Shown here: positions 3,656 through 58,622 of the stretch, one piece after another
Position numbering within the stretch: position 1 is the stretch's first letter
Layout: each line of letters starts with the position of its first letter
Source of the DNA: a virus
Virus record (IMG/VR): IMGVR_UViG_3300042884_001120
Location: 1-64,000 of that record
DNA: 64,000 nt
Reading direction: 5' to 3' (one strand)
The notes under the pieces: model-generated
Told to the model about the DNA's origin: nothing
Seen by the model: the letters and a program-made list of their open reading frames with translations, nothing else
The model's database searches: none
Position numbers and translations under genes: made by a program

Positions 3656-3829
3656 TTAGTGATTGATAGCAAACCATGCTATTATAGTAGCAATTATTGC
3701 AAGTACAGTCAAGCAAAGAATAGCATAAATAGCTTTACAAAAAAACGTGAATATTTTATATAAACCAAATAATAATACAAACGGTATTAGTATAAATCCC
3801 CAACACGCAGATATAAAAGGATCTAGCAT
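3656..3829 (-). CDS. small membrane protein, 57 aa
   Basis: Short frame from ATG at 3827-3829 to TAA at 3656-3658. The product is very hydrophobic, with two likely membrane segments (around WGFILIPFVLLFGLY and AILCLTVLAIIATIIAWFA) separated by a short basic turn (KIFTFFCK). It lies just downstream of tRNA-Ser on the same strand. Small two-helix membrane proteins are frequent in phages (holin-like or membrane-modifying), but nothing here assigns a role. Confidence 0.5.
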   Translation of the reverse strand: MLDPFISACWGFILIPFVLLFGLYKIFTFFCKAIYAILCLTVLAIIATIIAWFAINH

Positions 3830-4184: not shown

Positions 4185-4267
4185 GTAAAAAATTATGCAG
4201 AATTTGTTTTTATCTCATTAGCCTTGATCTGCTTTTGCTCTTCAGTTGGGTGCGACCCAACATAGCC

Positions 4268-4703
4268 TGGACGCGGCGGGAGTCGAACCCGCGTGTTTAA
4301 TATTGATTACTATATATTCATTCACATGTTTTGGTAAATTCAGCATTTGATTGACTAAAGGCTGCTATGGTTTACCGACCTATCTTTTAGAGTCTGCCTG
4401 ATATAGTGAAGAGTCTACATCCACCCCCTACGCTTGTTTTACGAGTATCGTAGATACTACTCTAACCTACTATATTTTCCAAAAGCTTAGTAGGATCTGC
4501 TTTTGGCGTTTATGCGGCCAATGCGTAAGACTCTTCTTCGGAGAAGAATTCCACAACATTTGTCATCACTGACTTGACTGCATTAACTGCATTAGTAATA
4601 ACTTTTGCATTTATGTTTTCGATCAGCTTTTAAGGTAGCCAACTGATCAACTACCACATGCATATACAGTTTTCAACGATTAAGTCGAAACCAGTACGCG
4701 CCC
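4268..4703 (-). ncRNA. ssrA: tmRNA (transfer-messenger RNA)
   Basis: Phage-encoded tmRNA, which rescues stalled ribosomes and tags the nascent protein. The tRNA-like ends pair over seven bases: 5' GGGCGCG (4697-4703) with 3' CGCGTCC. They are followed by the conserved ACTGGTTTCGACT motif and a T-arm GCGGG-TTCGACT-CCCGC. Pseudoknot PK1 is explicit at 4621-4655 (GGTAG/CTACC interleaved with GATCAG/CTGATC). About 12 bases after PK1 an in-frame GCA (4606-4608) can act as resume codon. The tag frame runs to TAA at 4510-4512 and ends SYALAA, the classic protease-recognition tail. From that GCA the tag would be 32 residues, longer than the usual 8-20. CCA is not encoded. The remaining ~240 bases downstream presumably hold further pseudoknots, which I did not resolve. 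Confidence 0.92.
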
Positions 4704-42625: not shown

Positions 42626-45163
42626 TTATTTTAAATCACGCATATTCTTGTATATCTTACAGTCTTGCTTGATGATCTTGTCGGCAAAAATTGCATCACT
42701 GCCCTTTAATCTGCCCTTAATAGCTACTATATCGCCTTCCTCTGGAAAACTACCTCCATTATCATACTTGCATTCATCTAATAACCCCTGCTTTCCATCA
42801 AATAGTAAACAAGTAATTGTTCCCGTGTCATCTGCGACTACCGCTTTATAGAATTTATTACCATTCTTAGATTTGGACTGTTTGCACTCAAGCACTTGTC
42901 CAACGGCTAAAACCTTGTCATTTTCCTTTCTATTTTGTTTAATATACTCTATGGTATTGAATTCATTATTTTTCTTTTTAAATAGTCTTGTTAGGTTTTG
43001 GCTATAGCTAAAACCAAGGCAATTTCTTTCGTAGAAATAATTTGTTACGTCTTCGTTTCTACTATTTAGCATATAGATATCCTTATAGGTATTATATTTA
43101 CTTTTTATAGTTTCAAAACGACTATCCTTAATCTGAGCTTTGTCATTCAATAGCTTAATAATTAGCAAGATATCCTTGTTATCAGTGTCATCATGTACAT
43201 CTTTAACTAAACGCTTCTCTCTATCAGTTAGTAAATTATAGGTTTGTGCCTCAAGAACTAACCTAGTTCTTTTCGTTTCTAAATCATCTAAAGAACCAGC
43301 CTGTATCAAAGAGGAAAGCACTCCAATATTTAAACCTGCCTGTTTTGCGGCAACAAAACAGTCGATCTTGCTATCATATTCGCCACGGAATTTGATTAAT
43401 TTTTCCATCGCGCTATCTGAAACCCCCTTAATTGCGCTTAGTCCATAACGAATATTATTTCCATCTATTTTAAATTTCATGTCAGACTTTAATAAGTGTG
43501 GGGGTAGCAACTTAATTCCAAAATGGGGAAGTTCTTGCTGCATTTTTCTAATTTCCTCCATTGGGTCTGGAAGACGCTGGCTAGCATTTAGACATGCTGT
43601 AAAGAATTGTAATGGATATTTATACTTAAGATAGACGGTAAGCGCGCCAAGGTAAGCCGTTGCCATTGAATGTGACTTATTGAATGAATAGTCCGCCGAA
43701 TCGCTACAAACCTTCCAAATAGCCTCTGCTACTTGCTCACCGAATCCATTCTTTTCACAAGTTTCAAATACTCTATCCTTCCATTTGGGCATCTCATCAC
43801 GCTTCTTTTTGCCAATAACTCGTCTAATGATTTCCCCCTCATCTGCCGAAAACCCAACGGCTACCAGACTTTGAATAAGTTGTTCTTGATAAAGTGGAAG
43901 ATTTCTACTTTCCGCAAAAACCTCCCTCAATTTCTCGTGTGGCGGCTCACCTGACATGCAAACATATTTATCTTCATATGCTAGCGCGCCAGGTCGAGCT
44001 ATAGCGTTTACATCGCTAAGTTCCTGAATATTTGCTGGTTTGATTTTTTGACATACTCTATACGCGCAATCAGCACTGATTTGATAAAGGCCGTAGGGTT
44101 TTAAATTATCGCTTTGTAAATGTTTATAAACATCAATATTTGTATCAAGCTCGATATCTTCAATTGATTCTGGAATATTTTCGAAAATATCTTTAATAAT
44201 TTCATTGCTTGTTAGACCAAGAAGATCAAGTTTAATGCCAAATTTTGCGGCAGTGTTCATTTCGTAAGAAATACTTATCTCACCTTCTTTATTTAATTCT
44301 ACTGGAATAAATTCGTTTAATGAAGAATAAGATATGAAATATCCACTAGCATGTGTTGATTTACCACGAATCAGGTCTCTTAACTTAAGGGCTACTCTAT
44401 AAGACTCGGGGTACGAGTCCGCCCATTCTTTAAACTTTTCGCTATTCTTGTAAGAGTCCTCAATATCCTCAACTACTCCAAAGGTTTTGCCAATGGTGTC
44501 GGATAGGTCAGAAGCCATTTCTTCTGTAGCTTCATTTATTATTTTAAAAACATCTTTTACTAGAATTTTACCAGAAAAAGTTGAAAGTGCTGCAATTTTA
44601 GCAACCTTGTTCGGATAGCAAGATTTTAGCCATTCAATTATCTCTTCCCTAACGCCACCCAAGTTAATATCAACGTCTGGAGCAAGATCTCCCTGTATAT
44701 ATGTCACACCATCAATAATTTCCTTCTTTGCTCTTACTCTCGAAATAAATCGTGTAAAAAATAGTTTTTTATCTATTGGGTCAACCCCTGTTACCCCAAT
44801 CAAAAAGAATATTAAACTACCAGCCGCACTACCACGACCCCAATCAATGAATGCGCCCATTTGTCGTGCTTTGTTAATTACTCTCCAAACCAACAGGAAA
44901 TAATCCACAAATCCTAGATCCTGAACAATTACGAATTCTTCTTGAAGTCTCTCGATATATTTAGGCCATAAATCTTTATTTACCTTATCTCTAAAAGAAA
45001 TCCAACCTTGGTTAATTAATTGTTGTAAAAACTCATCATTATTATTTACAGGCTTCGCAATAATATTTTTCTCGCTATCCGTAAGATCAATGCTTGGTAA
45101 GCGAACCAAGTTGATGTTATCTATTTTTATTTGACCGAATTCTTTAAGAAATTTATTGTTCAT
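42626..45163 (-). CDS. dnaE: DNA polymerase III alpha, polymerase core (lacks PHP)
   Basis: 845 residues from ATG at 45161-45163. Replicative polymerase of the C family. The palm motif WGRGSAAGSLIFFLIGVTGV, the Asp pair APDVDINLGG and the third Asp in KLDLLGLTSNE are present. These are followed by SFNKSHSMATAYLGALTVYL, the HhH-type YGLSAIKGVSDSAMEKL and a C-terminal OB fold (VLAVGQVLECKQSKSKNG). The N-terminal PHP domain of normal DnaE is absent here and encoded separately at 46628. The upstream ATG-less extension overlaps the endonuclease gene and is rejected. A TTGCGA-N17-TACCAT promoter overlaps the endonuclease 3' end. Confidence 0.93.
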   Translation of the reverse strand: MNNKFLKEFGQIKIDNINLVRLPSIDLTDSEKNIIAKPVNNNDEFLQQLINQGWISFRDKVNKDLWPKYIERLQEEFVIVQDLGFVDYFLLVWRVINKARQMGAFIDWGRGSAAGSLIFFLIGVTGVDPIDKKLFFTRFISRVRAKKEIIDGVTYIQGDLAPDVDINLGGVREEIIEWLKSCYPNKVAKIAALSTFSGKILVKDVFKIINEATEEMASDLSDTIGKTFGVVEDIEDSYKNSEKFKEWADSYPESYRVALKLRDLIRGKSTHASGYFISYSSLNEFIPVELNKEGEISISYEMNTAAKFGIKLDLLGLTSNEIIKDIFENIPESIEDIELDTNIDVYKHLQSDNLKPYGLYQISADCAYRVCQKIKPANIQELSDVNAIARPGALAYEDKYVCMSGEPPHEKLREVFAESRNLPLYQEQLIQSLVAVGFSADEGEIIRRVIGKKKRDEMPKWKDRVFETCEKNGFGEQVAEAIWKVCSDSADYSFNKSHSMATAYLGALTVYLKYKYPLQFFTACLNASQRLPDPMEEIRKMQQELPHFGIKLLPPHLLKSDMKFKIDGNNIRYGLSAIKGVSDSAMEKLIKFRGEYDSKIDCFVAAKQAGLNIGVLSSLIQAGSLDDLETKRTRLVLEAQTYNLLTDREKRLVKDVHDDTDNKDILLIIKLLNDKAQIKDSRFETIKSKYNTYKDIYMLNSRNEDVTNYFYERNCLGFSYSQNLTRLFKKKNNEFNTIEYIKQNRKENDKVLAVGQVLECKQSKSKNGNKFYKAVVADDTGTITCLLFDGKQGLLDECKYDNGGSFPEEGDIVAIKGRLKGSDAIFADKIIKQDCKIYKNMRDLK

Positions 45164-45195
45164 ACTTCGATTGAAGATAATGGTAGCATATTTTT

Positions 45196-45975
45196 TTAAT
45201 AATCGCAAGATTTTATAAAAAGAGATTTATATGTATCAAATTTTCTATGCAATTTAAAGGATAATTTTTTTTTATAAATATAGTCTAAAAATATTTTTTG
45301 ATTTTTTTTGTGTAAAATCTCAAACCTAGAAAAACTAGTAGTAGATGTTTTGTATCTATAAATGTTATATTTAATATTTAAATTAGTACTTAATGTAATT
45401 AAAGCGTCCCATTTTTGATGATAAGATCCACATATTGTTAGTGTCTTTGAAATATGCCCATCGGCATCAAACCATCCTCTAAAAAAATGGTTATGTAGTT
45501 TATGCGGAATCAAAGAAAGTATTTTTACTGGGCTTTCTAGGGATTTATTGCAAAAATCGCTATTTTGCAAAAATATTGCTAATTTTTTATGGTTAAAATA
45601 AAACATGGTCTGGGGTTTCCAATTAGATTTTTGTGGTTTTTTTTGATGTATTTTCCACCTATTATCAAATAGGTTTTTAATATCTATAGCGTCCTCGCGC
45701 TTTATCGTAAGAGAAACGTGCCCCCCTCTTGAGGTGCTTTTTACTGTGCCATCTCCCCAAATAAAACCCAATAAATAAGAAATATTTTCTGTATTTATAT
45801 GAATAAAATCATTAATATTTGAATTATTTTCTCTGCAATTGGTTTTTATTTTAAGCTCACTAGCTACTCTCCTGATGGAGTCGGAACTTCTATTTATATA
45901 TTCTTTAACTTTTTTACAGCCGCCGTTTGGGTAATGTATCCTAATAATTTGTTTTTCGTAATCAGAATACTTCAT
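45196..45975 (-). CDS. free-standing LAGLIDADG homing endonuclease
   Basis: 259 residues. Two LAGLIDADG motifs, YLLGFIWGDGTV (~residue 65) and FFRGWFDADGHI (~165), each ending in the catalytic acid. The N-terminus (YEKQIIRIHYPNGGCKKVKE, SIRRVASELK) is a helix-turn-helix. No intein splice motifs and no intron ends are visible, and it does not interrupt a frame. It sits between the exonuclease and polymerase core genes. It has a late-type motif GTGTAATAT six bases before the ATG, unlike its replication neighbours. Confidence 0.88.
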   Translation of the reverse strand: MKYSDYEKQIIRIHYPNGGCKKVKEYINRSSDSIRRVASELKIKTNCRENNSNINDFIHINTENISYLLGFIWGDGTVKSTSRGGHVSLTIKREDAIDIKNLFDNRWKIHQKKPQKSNWKPQTMFYFNHKKLAIFLQNSDFCNKSLESPVKILSLIPHKLHNHFFRGWFDADGHISKTLTICGSYHQKWDALITLSTNLNIKYNIYRYKTSTTSFSRFEILHKKNQKIFLDYIYKKKLSFKLHRKFDTYKSLFIKSCDY

Positions 45976-45981
45976 GTAGTT

Positions 45982-45990
45982 ATATTACAC
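45982..45990 (-). promoter_or_regulatory. late-type promoter motif GTGTAATAT before homing endonuclease
   Basis: GTGTAATAT, then six bases, then ATG at 45975, minus strand. Same element and spacing as at 58591. Confidence 0.6.
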
Positions 45991-46005
45991 TACATTGTGT
46001 GCCAA

Positions 46006-46638
46006 CTACACCTCGATGGCATATATCTGTTTCATAAATATTTTAAATACTAACGAGTTATCGTACAGTGAGTCATGCGCTTTATTTTCATCGTAGTCAA
46101 TATCATACACAGAACAAAGATGTTTAACAGATGTTTTTAATCCTCTTTGTCTAAAGTTTTGCATTTGAAAATTCCAACCACTACGATCTTCGGGTATTGA
46201 TTTAAGCCCTAAGTATATACCCTTTTGCATTGATTGTACATCAAGAATTCTATCTACATAAGAATAATCAGTCTCTAATCCCGCCGCCTTTCTTAAGTTA
46301 TTGTGTTGATAAACATCGAAACCAAGTAGGTTTGCACCAATAATTATATAGTCTTTATTGTAAAGATATTTATCAAAATCAGTAACAACCTTTTTAGGAT
46401 CTTCTGACTTTTTTGCCCAAGCCGCCCTATCAAAGCGTGTTATTTTGGCGGCACCATCAGACATCTTTAAATCATCCCAATAAATAAATCTATCTTCATT
46501 TTTTATAATTTTATTACCTTCTGCAATTGACCAGCTTAATTGCCAAGGCCTTGAATTTGCCAAGTTTAAACTTTCGGTTTCAGTGTCGAAAATTAAATAT
46601 TTCTGTTTTTTCTGAAAGCGTAAAAGATTATCTTGCAT
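46006..46638 (-). CDS. DnaQ-like 3'-5' exonuclease (DEDDh)
   Basis: 210 residues. ExoI motif YLIFDTETESLNLANSR (D-x-E), ExoII GANLLGFDVYQHNNLR (Asp) and ExoIII KAHDSLYDNSLVFKIFM (H-x4-D), so the DEDDh class. It probably proofreads for the phage polymerase. It is encoded between the PHP-like gene and the polymerase core and overlaps the PHP-like gene by 11 bases, so the three are co-translated parts of one replicase. Confidence 0.88.
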   Translation of the reverse strand: MQDNLLRFQKKQKYLIFDTETESLNLANSRPWQLSWSIAEGNKIIKNEDRFIYWDDLKMSDGAAKITRFDRAAWAKKSEDPKKVVTDFDKYLYNKDYIIIGANLLGFDVYQHNNLRKAAGLETDYSYVDRILDVQSMQKGIYLGLKSIPEDRSGWNFQMQNFRQRGLKTSVKHLCSVYDIDYDENKAHDSLYDNSLVFKIFMKQIYAIEV

Positions 46639-47374
46639 TGTTCATTGCCTCCATACAGAATTCATTGCTTCCAAAGTGGGATAGTTCCGGCTTCTGAAAG
46701 TTTGATCTATTTAAAATACATCTATAAGTCATATAAGCATTAAAATCTGATTTATTATTATAATAGATAGTCTTACTTTCTATCTGGTCATACTTTATAC
46801 TTGATTGTATCTGTTTTTTTACAATACTGTCAAATGGTAAATTGTTATTTTCTATTGAAATATATGGGCTTGTAAAATCTATGTCCGGAATACAATAGTG
46901 ACCATGTAATAAATTATTGAATATAAATGAATCGTAAAATGGAATTAGCATTAATAAATTTTTAGTCCAATTCTTTTTTAAGATATTATAATCTAACCGT
47001 GGCTTACCATTAAAATTACCAATAGTAGTTGAGATATTATGAAGTTTAACTAGATCGGTAAAGCTATTGCTTTTAGCGAAAATAATCAACTTGCCTTCAG
47101 TTTGAGTAGAGGCATCTGTTTTATCTTCTATATTATTACATACGCTTACTCTAAAACCATAACGTAAATTTAGCCCGGCATTAGACGCGTTTTCATATGC
47201 TTCAACCATACCGCTTAAATTATTATCTGCAATAAAAACATCTTTAATATCGTTATCTTTACAGATATCAAATACTGAATCTGCTCGATTCAATTTCCTA
47301 TCGCTAATATCCGTACCCTTATCAAGGGTTAGTATGGACGTTAGAGAATAATTTGATCTAAATATTGGTATCAT
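46628..47374 (-). CDS. split-off PHP-like N-terminal part of DNA polymerase III alpha
   Basis: 248 residues. The order matches the DnaE N-terminus: IPIFRSNYSLTSILTL (where active PHP domains have HxHSxYS), SVFDICKDNDIKDVFIADNN, GMVEAYENASNAGLNLRYGF, KLIIFAKSNSFTDLVKLHNI, and ending SHFGSNEFCMEAMNNAR, which corresponds to the PHP-palm junction of DnaE. The metal-binding His pair is replaced by Arg-Ser-Asn, so it is probably structural. It precedes the exonuclease, with the homing endonuclease and polymerase core downstream. Confidence 0.75.
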   Translation of the reverse strand: MIPIFRSNYSLTSILTLDKGTDISDRKLNRADSVFDICKDNDIKDVFIADNNLSGMVEAYENASNAGLNLRYGFRVSVCNNIEDKTDASTQTEGKLIIFAKSNSFTDLVKLHNISTTIGNFNGKPRLDYNILKKNWTKNLLMLIPFYDSFIFNNLLHGHYCIPDIDFTSPYISIENNNLPFDSIVKKQIQSSIKYDQIESKTIYYNNKSDFNAYMTYRCILNRSNFQKPELSHFGSNEFCMEAMNNAR

Positions 47375-56799: not shown

Positions 56800-57755
56800 T
56801 TATATATATTTTCTTTGTATTATTGTATTTTCTATTGTATTTCCGTATTCGGGAAACATGCTTGATGCTGGATGTAGGGTTGAATTAATTACTAATTGAG
56901 ATATCGCATTTATATCGTAATGCATTGGTAGTACATATTTCTCAAATACTAGCCACCTTAATAGGTGCGAAGGCGCGGGATTAAATGGTTGTTTACAGTA
57001 CTTAGAAAAAACATAGGTAGGTTTTCCGTAGTGTAGTGGGAAATATCTCAATCCAGAGTCTACGCCAATAAAGGCGGAACATGCCTCGCTTAATGCAAAA
57101 AAATCTTCTAGTGAGCAATCTGTCAAAGTAAAGTTTGGATATTGAAGATCTGAGATTTCTTTATAAAAATCCATATATTCGGTTTGACACACCGAAACAA
57201 CCTGCTTACCAGACGCTAATAGCTTTTTAAGCAATGCTATAACATACCACTGTTCAACATTATGATCAGAGTTGGGTCTTGGGTAAAGATGTGTAAGAAT
57301 ATAACTATCTTTAATATCAGACAACTGATTATTTATCTCTGGTCTTGGAAAGAAATAAAAATATCGTTTCCAATCAAAACTATAATTTAGCCAGTCAAGG
57401 TTGTCTATGCACAGGTTATAGAAGTAATCTGAGTCGTTAAGTAGTTTAATATATTGATCTGGTAGATTATCTAGATGGCAGTTATAAACCTCTTCTCCAA
57501 ACTGGCTTTTTACTTTAAAATCTTTACTTTTTCTACTTTCAATTACTTTGCAATTATTATTTGTATAAATACTTGGCCAAGCATACTTAAGCAAATTTAT
57601 CTGTTTGTGGTTATTTTCAGTATCTGAATAGAAATTTAATTGAGCATTAGGGTGCTTTTCCCTGATGGCCGCGACAAATCTATTAGATAGAAGATGATCT
57701 CCGATACCTAACCGCCCTCAAGACGAATAGAAACAGTGTGCTTACTTGGGGGCAA
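56800..57755 (-). CDS. GT9-type glycosyltransferase, 5' end frameshifted
   Basis: The downstream frame (from about 57714 to 56800) encodes LGIGDHLLSNRFVAAIREKH and continues through LLKYAWPSIYTNNNC to a C-terminal half with CSAFIGVDSGLRYFPLHYGK, a GT9 heptosyltransferase pattern. The expected first residues, SKHTVSIRLEGG, are encoded just upstream in another frame, ending in TAG at 57708-57710. Reading one base back there, or restoring one T, would join them into SIRLEGGLGIGD. No ATG starts the downstream frame. A TTG at 57753-57755 is the only start-like codon for the upstream piece, and it lies within the 3' end of the homing endonuclease gene. Either a one-base deletion, a sequencing error or a programmed -1 frameshift. 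Confidence 0.7.
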
Positions 57756-58584
57756 TTAAACCACCCCCTTGTACTTGTGAAAAAAAATCTTCCATTTTAA
57801 GTTTTTTTCTGTTTAAAAAAATGTTTGCATCTTTATATAGAAAGTTATATATAGATAGTATATCTTCTTGCGAATAAATGCAAGTATTATATAAATTAAA
57901 ATTTGTATATTTAGAGATAGAAACCCTTGGTCTTACTCCTGTAAGCTTTTGTATATGAAACTTAGCTTTTTCGTGCCATTCTTTTGTACTAATGATAGAA
58001 AATTCCCCGTTAATATAATTTCTTTGGTTTTTTTTAATTTTAAAACAGCCATCCCCATCAAACATTCCTCTTATATAGTGCCTAATTAATTCTTTTTGTA
58101 GATTTGGGAATTTTAAATTTACGGTCTTGTCTTGAATGCATCCAAAAGACAATAAGTCTTCACTGATTTTTCTTATGGGAACATAAAGTTTGTGCATGTT
58201 TTTTTTGCCCTTCTTTCCGGGTGGACGGTTTTGTAACGGCCTATCCCCAAAAAATAGAGAACTTATATTTTTTAGTATATAACCATCTTCTTCTTGTAGA
58301 GATATTTCGATCTTTCCTCTTTTTACATCGTTATAACCATCTGCATGAAAGAGCCCTAAAAAATAAGCTTTTTCTTGGGTATCGATGCTTGTAAAAATAT
58401 TTTTATTAGTTGGATATAATATATTTCTTTTTTGTATTGCTCCGTTCTTTTTAAGAACGTAATAAATTTGGTCCTTTGTCAGTCCTAATTCTGAAGAAAT
58501 TTCGTTGTATGGCTTTCCATCTAAATATAAGGATTTCATAGTGCATAACTGCTTTTCGGTGGGATAAAACGGTTCTTGTCTCAT
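57742..58584 (-). CDS. free-standing LAGLIDADG homing endonuclease
   Basis: 280 residues. Motifs AYFLGLFHADGYND (~residue 75) and HYIRGMFDGDGCFK (~170). N-terminal helix-turn-helix (ISSELGLTKDQIYYVLKKNG). It is not a copy of the enzyme at 45196. It lies between recA and the disrupted GT9 gene, overlapping the GT9 5' end by about 14 bases. A GGAAGGAG stretch and GTGTAATAT late-type motif precede the ATG. Confidence 0.88.
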   Translation of the reverse strand: MRQEPFYPTEKQLCTMKSLYLDGKPYNEISSELGLTKDQIYYVLKKNGAIQKRNILYPTNKNIFTSIDTQEKAYFLGLFHADGYNDVKRGKIEISLQEEDGYILKNISSLFFGDRPLQNRPPGKKGKKNMHKLYVPIRKISEDLLSFGCIQDKTVNLKFPNLQKELIRHYIRGMFDGDGCFKIKKNQRNYINGEFSIISTKEWHEKAKFHIQKLTGVRPRVSISKYTNFNLYNTCIYSQEDILSIYNFLYKDANIFLNRKKLKMEDFFSQVQGGGLIAPK

Positions 58585-58590
58585 TAAATG

Positions 58591-58599
58591 ATATTACAC
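58591..58599 (-). promoter_or_regulatory. late-type promoter motif GTGTAATAT before homing endonuclease
   Basis: GTGTAATAT, six bases, ATG at 58584. Identical motif and spacing to the other homing endonuclease. Confidence 0.6.
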
Positions 58600-58622
58600 T
58601 CCTTCCGATCGTACAGTCGTTA

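Follow-up and report, generated by a model that had tools for sequence, protein, structure and literature searches.

A DnaE-type DNA polymerase III alpha encoded by three consecutive genes in uncultured phages, and a predicted homing endonuclease gene between two of these genes in one phage

The locus described here raises the question of how a phage replicase comes to be encoded in pieces, and of whether an endonuclease gene found among the pieces drove the split or only invaded it. It lies in a stretch of 64,000 nucleotides (the window, to whose positions all coordinates refer unless a relative is named) within a virus record of 154,360 bases (IMG/VR IMGVR_UViG_3300042884_001120, of which the window is positions 1 to 64,000). 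On the minus strand, genes for a PHP-like protein (PHP), a DEDDh exonuclease (EXO), a LAGLIDADG protein and a DnaE-type polymerase core (POL) follow each other in this order, and all four open reading frames (ORFs) are open. A comparison with relatives revealed a large clade of uncultured phages in which three genes in a row, PHP, EXO and POL, most of them overlapping, encode the alpha subunit of a DnaE-type DNA polymerase III (Pol III). The LAGLIDADG gene, by contrast, is a recent insertion in this phage.

Identity of the three replicase proteins

The gene order and coordinates had been proposed in an initial annotation made from the sequence alone, and Pfam and PHROGs searches bore out each assignment. 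The PHP protein matched the Pfam PHP family above its cut-off (E = 1.6e-7), EXO matched RNase_T (24.9 bits, cut-off 24), the LAGLIDADG protein matched LAGLIDADG_3 in two stretches (E = 3.9e-9) as well as phrog_4645 (E = 6e-21), and the ORF at 42626–45208 matched DNA_pol3_alpha (E = 1.7e-47), the finger domain (E = 5.4e-21) and HHH_6 (E = 2.8e-17). The polymerase core had been placed at 42626–45208; the core itself stood, but its start did not, since the TTG at 45208, a mechanical call, adds 15 residues that are seen in no relative. The ATG at 45163, which aligns with the starts in relatives, is the likely start of POL.

The same annotation had read the locus as a Pol III alpha split into a PHP-like part and a core, a reading that predicted structures showing the first of these not to be the PHP domain would have refuted. 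The AlphaFold2 model of the PHP protein, obtained from an alignment of 51 sequences, reached a mean predicted local distance difference test score (pLDDT) of 89.3 and has the PHP fold of Pol III alpha: in a Foldseek search of the PDB, the top 22 matches were all C-family Pol III structures, with E. coli 5fkw first (E = 3e-12) and the E. coli and Thermus alpha subunits as the best matches. The PHP profile reaches residue 255 of the Thermus alpha subunit, and the match of POL begins at residue 284 of E. coli alpha and at residue 381 of Thermus alpha. In the joint alignment the cut falls between the E. coli DnaE segments SEEEM and TVEIAKRC, and about 14 residues are missing. Judged by this alignment and these profiles, the gene cut coincides with the PHP–palm junction of DnaE, which is where the PHP protein had been said to end and the core to begin. 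The PHP domain is not on the POL chain, being a separate ORF in all relatives.

The reading of RSNYS in place of HxHSxYS was correct, and the remaining metal ligands of the PHP domain are likewise gone: the positions HxH, TDH, E, H and NDxH are all replaced, and the loss was seen in every member of the clade that was aligned. In the same alignment, the fused polymerase of the cultured phage Goby retains the ligands. An active PHP site has been defined by nine metal ligands, following the motif HHDHEH[C/H]DH (PMC12926913); by this measure the PHP protein is predicted to be inactive, its nuclease role gone. A separate chain without metal ligands, with other genes between it and EXO in some relatives, could be a free-standing protein that has another role outside the replicase and is merely retained in the operon. 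We consider this unlikely, because the protein ends at the PHP–palm junction, because it lies upstream of EXO and POL at every locus with enough upstream DNA, and because 19 columns are invariant and another 19 nearly invariant in the alignment of 51 diverse sequences.

EXO was found to be the proofreading-type exonuclease that had been claimed to lie between PHP and the core. Its residues D18, E20, D108, H188 and D193 (DEDDh) are invariant in 49 of 49 sequences, and its model (pLDDT 93.1) has DnaQ (8h18) as the best fold match, so that residues (D-x-E, D, H, D) and predicted fold both assign it to the DnaQ-like DEDDh exonucleases. The POL profile matched residues 381–953 of Taq Pol III alpha (E = 8.9e-110) and 284–898 of E. 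coli alpha. Its domains follow the order of DnaE (palm, fingers, HhH), and the catalytic triad D163, D165 and D313 is invariant across the relatives aligned. A possible OB domain, C-terminal to the core, is hinted at by a tRNA_anti-codon match at residues 769–837 that stays below the cut-off (24.9 bits against 27).

An intact PHP–Pol gene elsewhere in the genome would have spoken against a split. The 154,360-base record gave one PHP match and one Pol III alpha match, and no second match to either. A clamp and a clamp loader were not found in the record, although this search says little, given that with PF00929 it failed to recover even the EXO of the window.

The split across relatives

Scans of viral contigs with the POL sequence returned 42 relatives, with the EXO alignment 217 (80 kept), and with the POL alignment at least 567 (80 kept). 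A genome scan added five contigs filed in metagenome-assembled genomes (MAGs) of Woesebacteria, Flavobacteriales, Flavobacteriaceae and Verrucomicrobiales. Separate genes were counted over 160 loci, viral or from MAGs, that are distinct by EXO sequence. PHP was a separate gene in all 154 distinct loci where PHP and EXO are visible, EXO and POL were separate in all 159 where both are visible, and no fused PHP–POL gene was present in the split clade among the loci surveyed. The survey for an unsplit dnaE that had been proposed as a check showed the clade to be split throughout, a sharing that the initial annotation had missed; in E. coli and in cultured phages with C-family polymerases, a single long gene, or a fused PHP–POL, was mostly found. 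No match to PHP or EXO was obtained in cultured phages by tblastn, using the proteins of the window and of two relatives as queries. In the POL tree, the 47 split sequences lie on one side of a branch with a support of 100 and a long stem, while the order of the cultured phages is unsure owing to their long branches. The tree and the counts indicate that the split between PHP and polymerase is old and clade-wide.

Polymerase genes broken in other ways were also seen. In the cultured Tenacibaculum phage Larrie (L054, 3002–6582), dnaE is split at a different place, inside the polymerase core, and the PHP domain is on the first piece. In Lactococcus phage LW81 (L061, 3212–7471), two pieces annotated as DNA polymerase III alpha flank a LAGLIDADG-like gene whose annotation reads hypothetical.

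The junctions between the three genes vary. The stop of EXO and the start of POL overlap by 4 nt in 69 of 92 distinct loci and by 1 nt in 17, which suggests coupled translation. PHP and EXO overlap by 11 nt in the window, and by 1, 4, 8, 11, 14, 20 or 26 nt across relatives, in different frames, so that a conserved frameshift product is unlikely. Gaps of more than 300 nt separate PHP from EXO in 27 loci and EXO from POL in 10, within the set of 160. These hold LAGLIDADG genes (L007, between PHP and EXO; L173, between EXO and POL, antisense), IMP dehydrogenase-like genes (L184, L201), genes for a phrog_18407 protein (L009, L221) and cupin-like genes (L193 by Pfam; L095, L096, L116 and L137 by eye). 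Since other genes sit in the junctions, the three coding regions need not be contiguous. Small ORFs of about 71–78 aa lie between EXO and POL in one branch; the one at 3724–3939 of L154 is found in the same place in about 20 relatives and has no match in PHROGs. These ORFs possibly encode a fourth small protein of the set.

Genes that overlap and adjoin in this way could also be joined into one PHP–EXO–POL or PHP–POL chain by programmed frameshifting, RNA splicing or protein splicing, and a related POL, that of L143, does carry a split intein. Such joining is nevertheless highly improbable, given that the frames are not conserved at either junction, that unrelated genes of 0.2–1.3 kb occupy the junctions of many relatives, that Rfam detected no group I intron, and that no window protein had an intein match in Pfam at E ≤ 1, a search in which the L143 intein was found as a positive control. 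In L143 (5629–8510), an antisense GIY-YIG-like endonuclease gene, recognized by eye, lies between the halves of the broken polymerase gene. A 9-mer present both where PHP ends and where POL begins, ATGAACAAT, was considered as a sign of an intron or of a repeat insertion and was rejected: it is not kept in other relatives, whose POL and EXO starts are the same, and Rfam gave no intron.

The endonuclease gene and the exchanged end of EXO

The LAGLIDADG protein has both motifs intact, LLGFIWGDG and FRGWFDADG, with their acidic residues, and on these motifs we judge it to be a predicted homing endonuclease. A scan of viral contigs with this single sequence returned no relatives. Its history can be read from L002, a contig of the same phage lineage (POL 99.9%, PHP 99.6% and flanking DNA 98.3–98.6% identical), in which the site is empty: there is no endonuclease gene, and the stop of EXO overlaps the start of POL. 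The gene is also missing at this site in other relatives. The initial annotation had left undecided whether the endonuclease drove the split or only invaded it; the empty site in L002 supports invasion, and the endonuclease cannot be regarded as the cause of the split because the relatives that lack it are split too. That the insertion broke a continuous PHP–POL gene in this lineage, as in the case of mobE and nrdA in phage Aeh1, might have been supposed from the position of the gene between EXO and POL and from the fact that such splits are known in phages (PMC2988022). For this insertion the idea is refuted by the endonuclease-free relatives and by L002, which is near-identical on both flanks and empty, and as an account of the locus it retains only a slight probability. 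An older endonuclease, since lost, might conceivably have been the original cause.

The comparison with L002 also revealed a replacement of the EXO tail that the initial annotation had missed. Between the two phages, EXO has 3 mismatches in its first 503 bases and 38 in the next 127, up to the stop (Fisher p = 1.6e-25), whereas along the roughly 13 kb of aligned flanks no stretch of 127 bases has more than 15. The replaced end retains the H188/D193 active-site motif and a stop in frame, so that the hybrid EXO would work on paper. The recipient's own end is represented by the remnant TTCAATCGAAGT, which is part of a 39-nt exact match to L002 running from position 45175 into POL. A diverged in-frame 3' end, a native remnant and an empty allele are the marks of a mobile ORF with C-terminal replacement. 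In fungal mitochondria, mobile endonuclease ORFs carry in a foreign C-terminus together with the endonuclease (PMC3630166), and it is established that phage homing can co-convert the flanks (PMC2988022). These comparisons indicate that the endonuclease gene entered recently and brought a foreign, diverged EXO end with it. Its presence here and absence from L002, together with the replaced flank, agree with homing into alleles that lack the gene, and its target may lie in the replaced end of EXO.

Because the exact arrangement occurs in one record only and no donor was found, the endonuclease gene and the foreign tail could be a chimera of metagenome assembly. This is improbable: across the joins EXO stays in frame, its motif and stop preserved, and the endonuclease gene and POL remain open; both flanks belong to the same phage (98.3–98.6% identical to L002), so that two clean false joins would be needed; and LAGLIDADG genes also occur in these junctions of two further relatives.

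Directly upstream of the endonuclease ATG lies the motif TGTAGTGTAATA (Table 1). The octamer at its core, GTGTAATA, stands ahead of several of this phage's genes; it has 14 sites in the 154-kb record (G000), 9 of them a few bases before an ATG (binomial p ~3e-5), and was found before all five LAGLIDADG genes examined in this phage group. The octamer may act as a phage promoter whose transcripts are nearly leaderless. A hairpin that would hide the endonuclease start was not retained as a signal: the arms TGTAGTT and AACTACA are present, but folding is not clearly above shuffled sequences (z = −1.25). A second LAGLIDADG endonuclease gene lies at 57742–58584 on the minus strand, adjoins a RecA-like gene, and has a relative in the L007 gene that separates PHP from EXO.

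The surroundings of the locus form a replication cluster, with genes for a ClpP-like protease, a PD-(D/E)XK nuclease, a primase-like Toprim protein, a DnaB-like helicase, a RecA-like protein and ribonucleotide reductase. A tmRNA gene at 4267–4703 on the minus strand adjoins five tRNA genes.

Table 1. Features of the split alpha locus and of the upstream motif (window positions unless a relative is named)
Feature	Position	Strand	Basis
PHP-domain protein, 248 aa, own gene; N-terminal part of DnaE-type Pol III alpha, metal ligands lost	46628..47374	-	Pfam PHP, AlphaFold2 model, Foldseek, alignment
EXO, DEDDh 3'-5' exonuclease of proofreading type, 210 aa	46006..46638	-	Pfam RNase_T, invariant active-site residues, model, fold match
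Foreign EXO 3' end, about 43 codons including H188/D193 motif and stop	46006..46135	-	Mismatch jump against L002
TGTAGTGTAATA motif	45983..45994	-	Exact copy 5' of another LAGLIDADG gene, in L007
Predicted LAGLIDADG homing endonuclease gene, 259 aa, recent insertion	45196..45975	-	LAGLIDADG_3, phrog_4645, absence at the site from L002 and other relatives
TTCAATCGAAGT, 12 bases left over from the EXO 3' end that the recipient had before the insertion, in front of POL	45164..45175	-	Exact match to L002
POL, PHP-less core of a DnaE-type Pol III alpha, 845 aa, with palm, fingers, HhH and a weak OB match; catalytic Asp residues invariant	42626..45163	-	Pfam, profile matches
GTGTAATA-type sites 5' of endonuclease genes	45983-45994 and 58592-58603; L007 4543-4554; also L015, L017	- (window sites)	

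Proposed assembly and comparison with known systems

Taken together, the comparisons show that alpha is split into three genes throughout the clade and that an endonuclease gene recently entered the window's copy and exchanged the tail of EXO; the chains would be reassembled in trans. We consider this account as a whole likely. PHP, EXO and POL would be made in step by translational coupling, as the overlaps suggest. The PHP and POL chains would then associate, PHP docking on POL through the surface that is intramolecular in an ordinary DnaE, a proposal based on the fold and the cut site. Operon position and conservation suggest that EXO proofreads for the replicase, and it would do so in trans because the PHP site cannot. 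The endonuclease would home by cutting the 3' end of EXO in phages without the endonuclease gene; the replaced end would restore EXO and probably abolish the target. The insertion disrupts the overlap between EXO and POL here, so that translation of POL would have to begin about 32 bases downstream of the endonuclease stop.

Two points weigh against this proposal. EXO ends at residue 210, its last helix spanning residues 190–204, and has no C-terminal extension like that of E. coli epsilon, which binds PHP through this extension. Moreover, no donor of the foreign EXO end was found, the best relative having 74% identity.

In the open-access literature searched, we found no description of a three-gene replicase. 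The surveys of C-family polymerases consulted treat PHP and polymerase as one chain (PMC3919608, PMC12926913), and the earlier of the two called the phage examples a handful. It is more probable than not, in our estimation, that hundreds of uncultured phages share an undescribed form of C-family replicase, in which a catalytically dead PHP subunit and a core lacking PHP must come together to form alpha, the gene between theirs supplying a DEDDh exonuclease. The joint between PHP and core would be intermolecular and possibly regulated, and the two gene junctions would stay open to the entry of endonucleases and cargo genes. The separate PHP genes of hundreds of phage contigs, kept beside the polymerase genes despite the loss of the metal site, amount to a natural experiment on the role of PHP in replicative polymerases, and a three-chain replicase with separable proofreading can be tested directly. 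The insertion itself offers a clean recent case of a selfish gene that appears to have rewritten the active-site end of a replication gene, with a near-identical empty allele at hand.

The system shares with DnaE and DnaQ of E. coli the PHP fold, a palm, finger and HhH core with the catalytic Asp residues, and a DEDDh exonuclease on its own chain. It differs from them in its separate PHP chain, in the absence of about 14 junction residues, and in having the exonuclease gene, whose product has no C-terminal extension like that of epsilon, placed between those for PHP and polymerase. As in PolC, exonuclease, PHP and polymerase are encoded at one place; however, PolC is one chain in which the exonuclease interrupts PHP and the OB domain is N-terminal (PMC3919608), whereas here an uninterrupted PHP precedes the exonuclease and the core is a far better match to DnaE than to PolC, which sets the proteins apart from PolC. 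In Wifcevirus and Pbunavirus phages, too, another gene directly precedes that of the polymerase, DnaQ-like in WFC and unnamed but similar in size in S12-1; their polymerase genes, however, are single ORFs of 967–1035 aa, while PHP is here separate and upstream of the exonuclease. The mobile ORFs of Allomyces atp6 and of Glomus atp6, atp9, cox2 and nad3 (PMC3630166) resemble the insertion in their diverged in-frame 3' end, endonuclease gene and native remnant behind it; here the setting is a phage replication operon and only 12 nt of the native end are left. Finally, the split enzymes of Aeh1 nrdA and of Aeromonas phage gene 43A/43B still work, with a homing endonuclease gene adjacent (PMC2988022), whereas the split described here follows the border between two domains, extends across the clade, and is older than the endonuclease.

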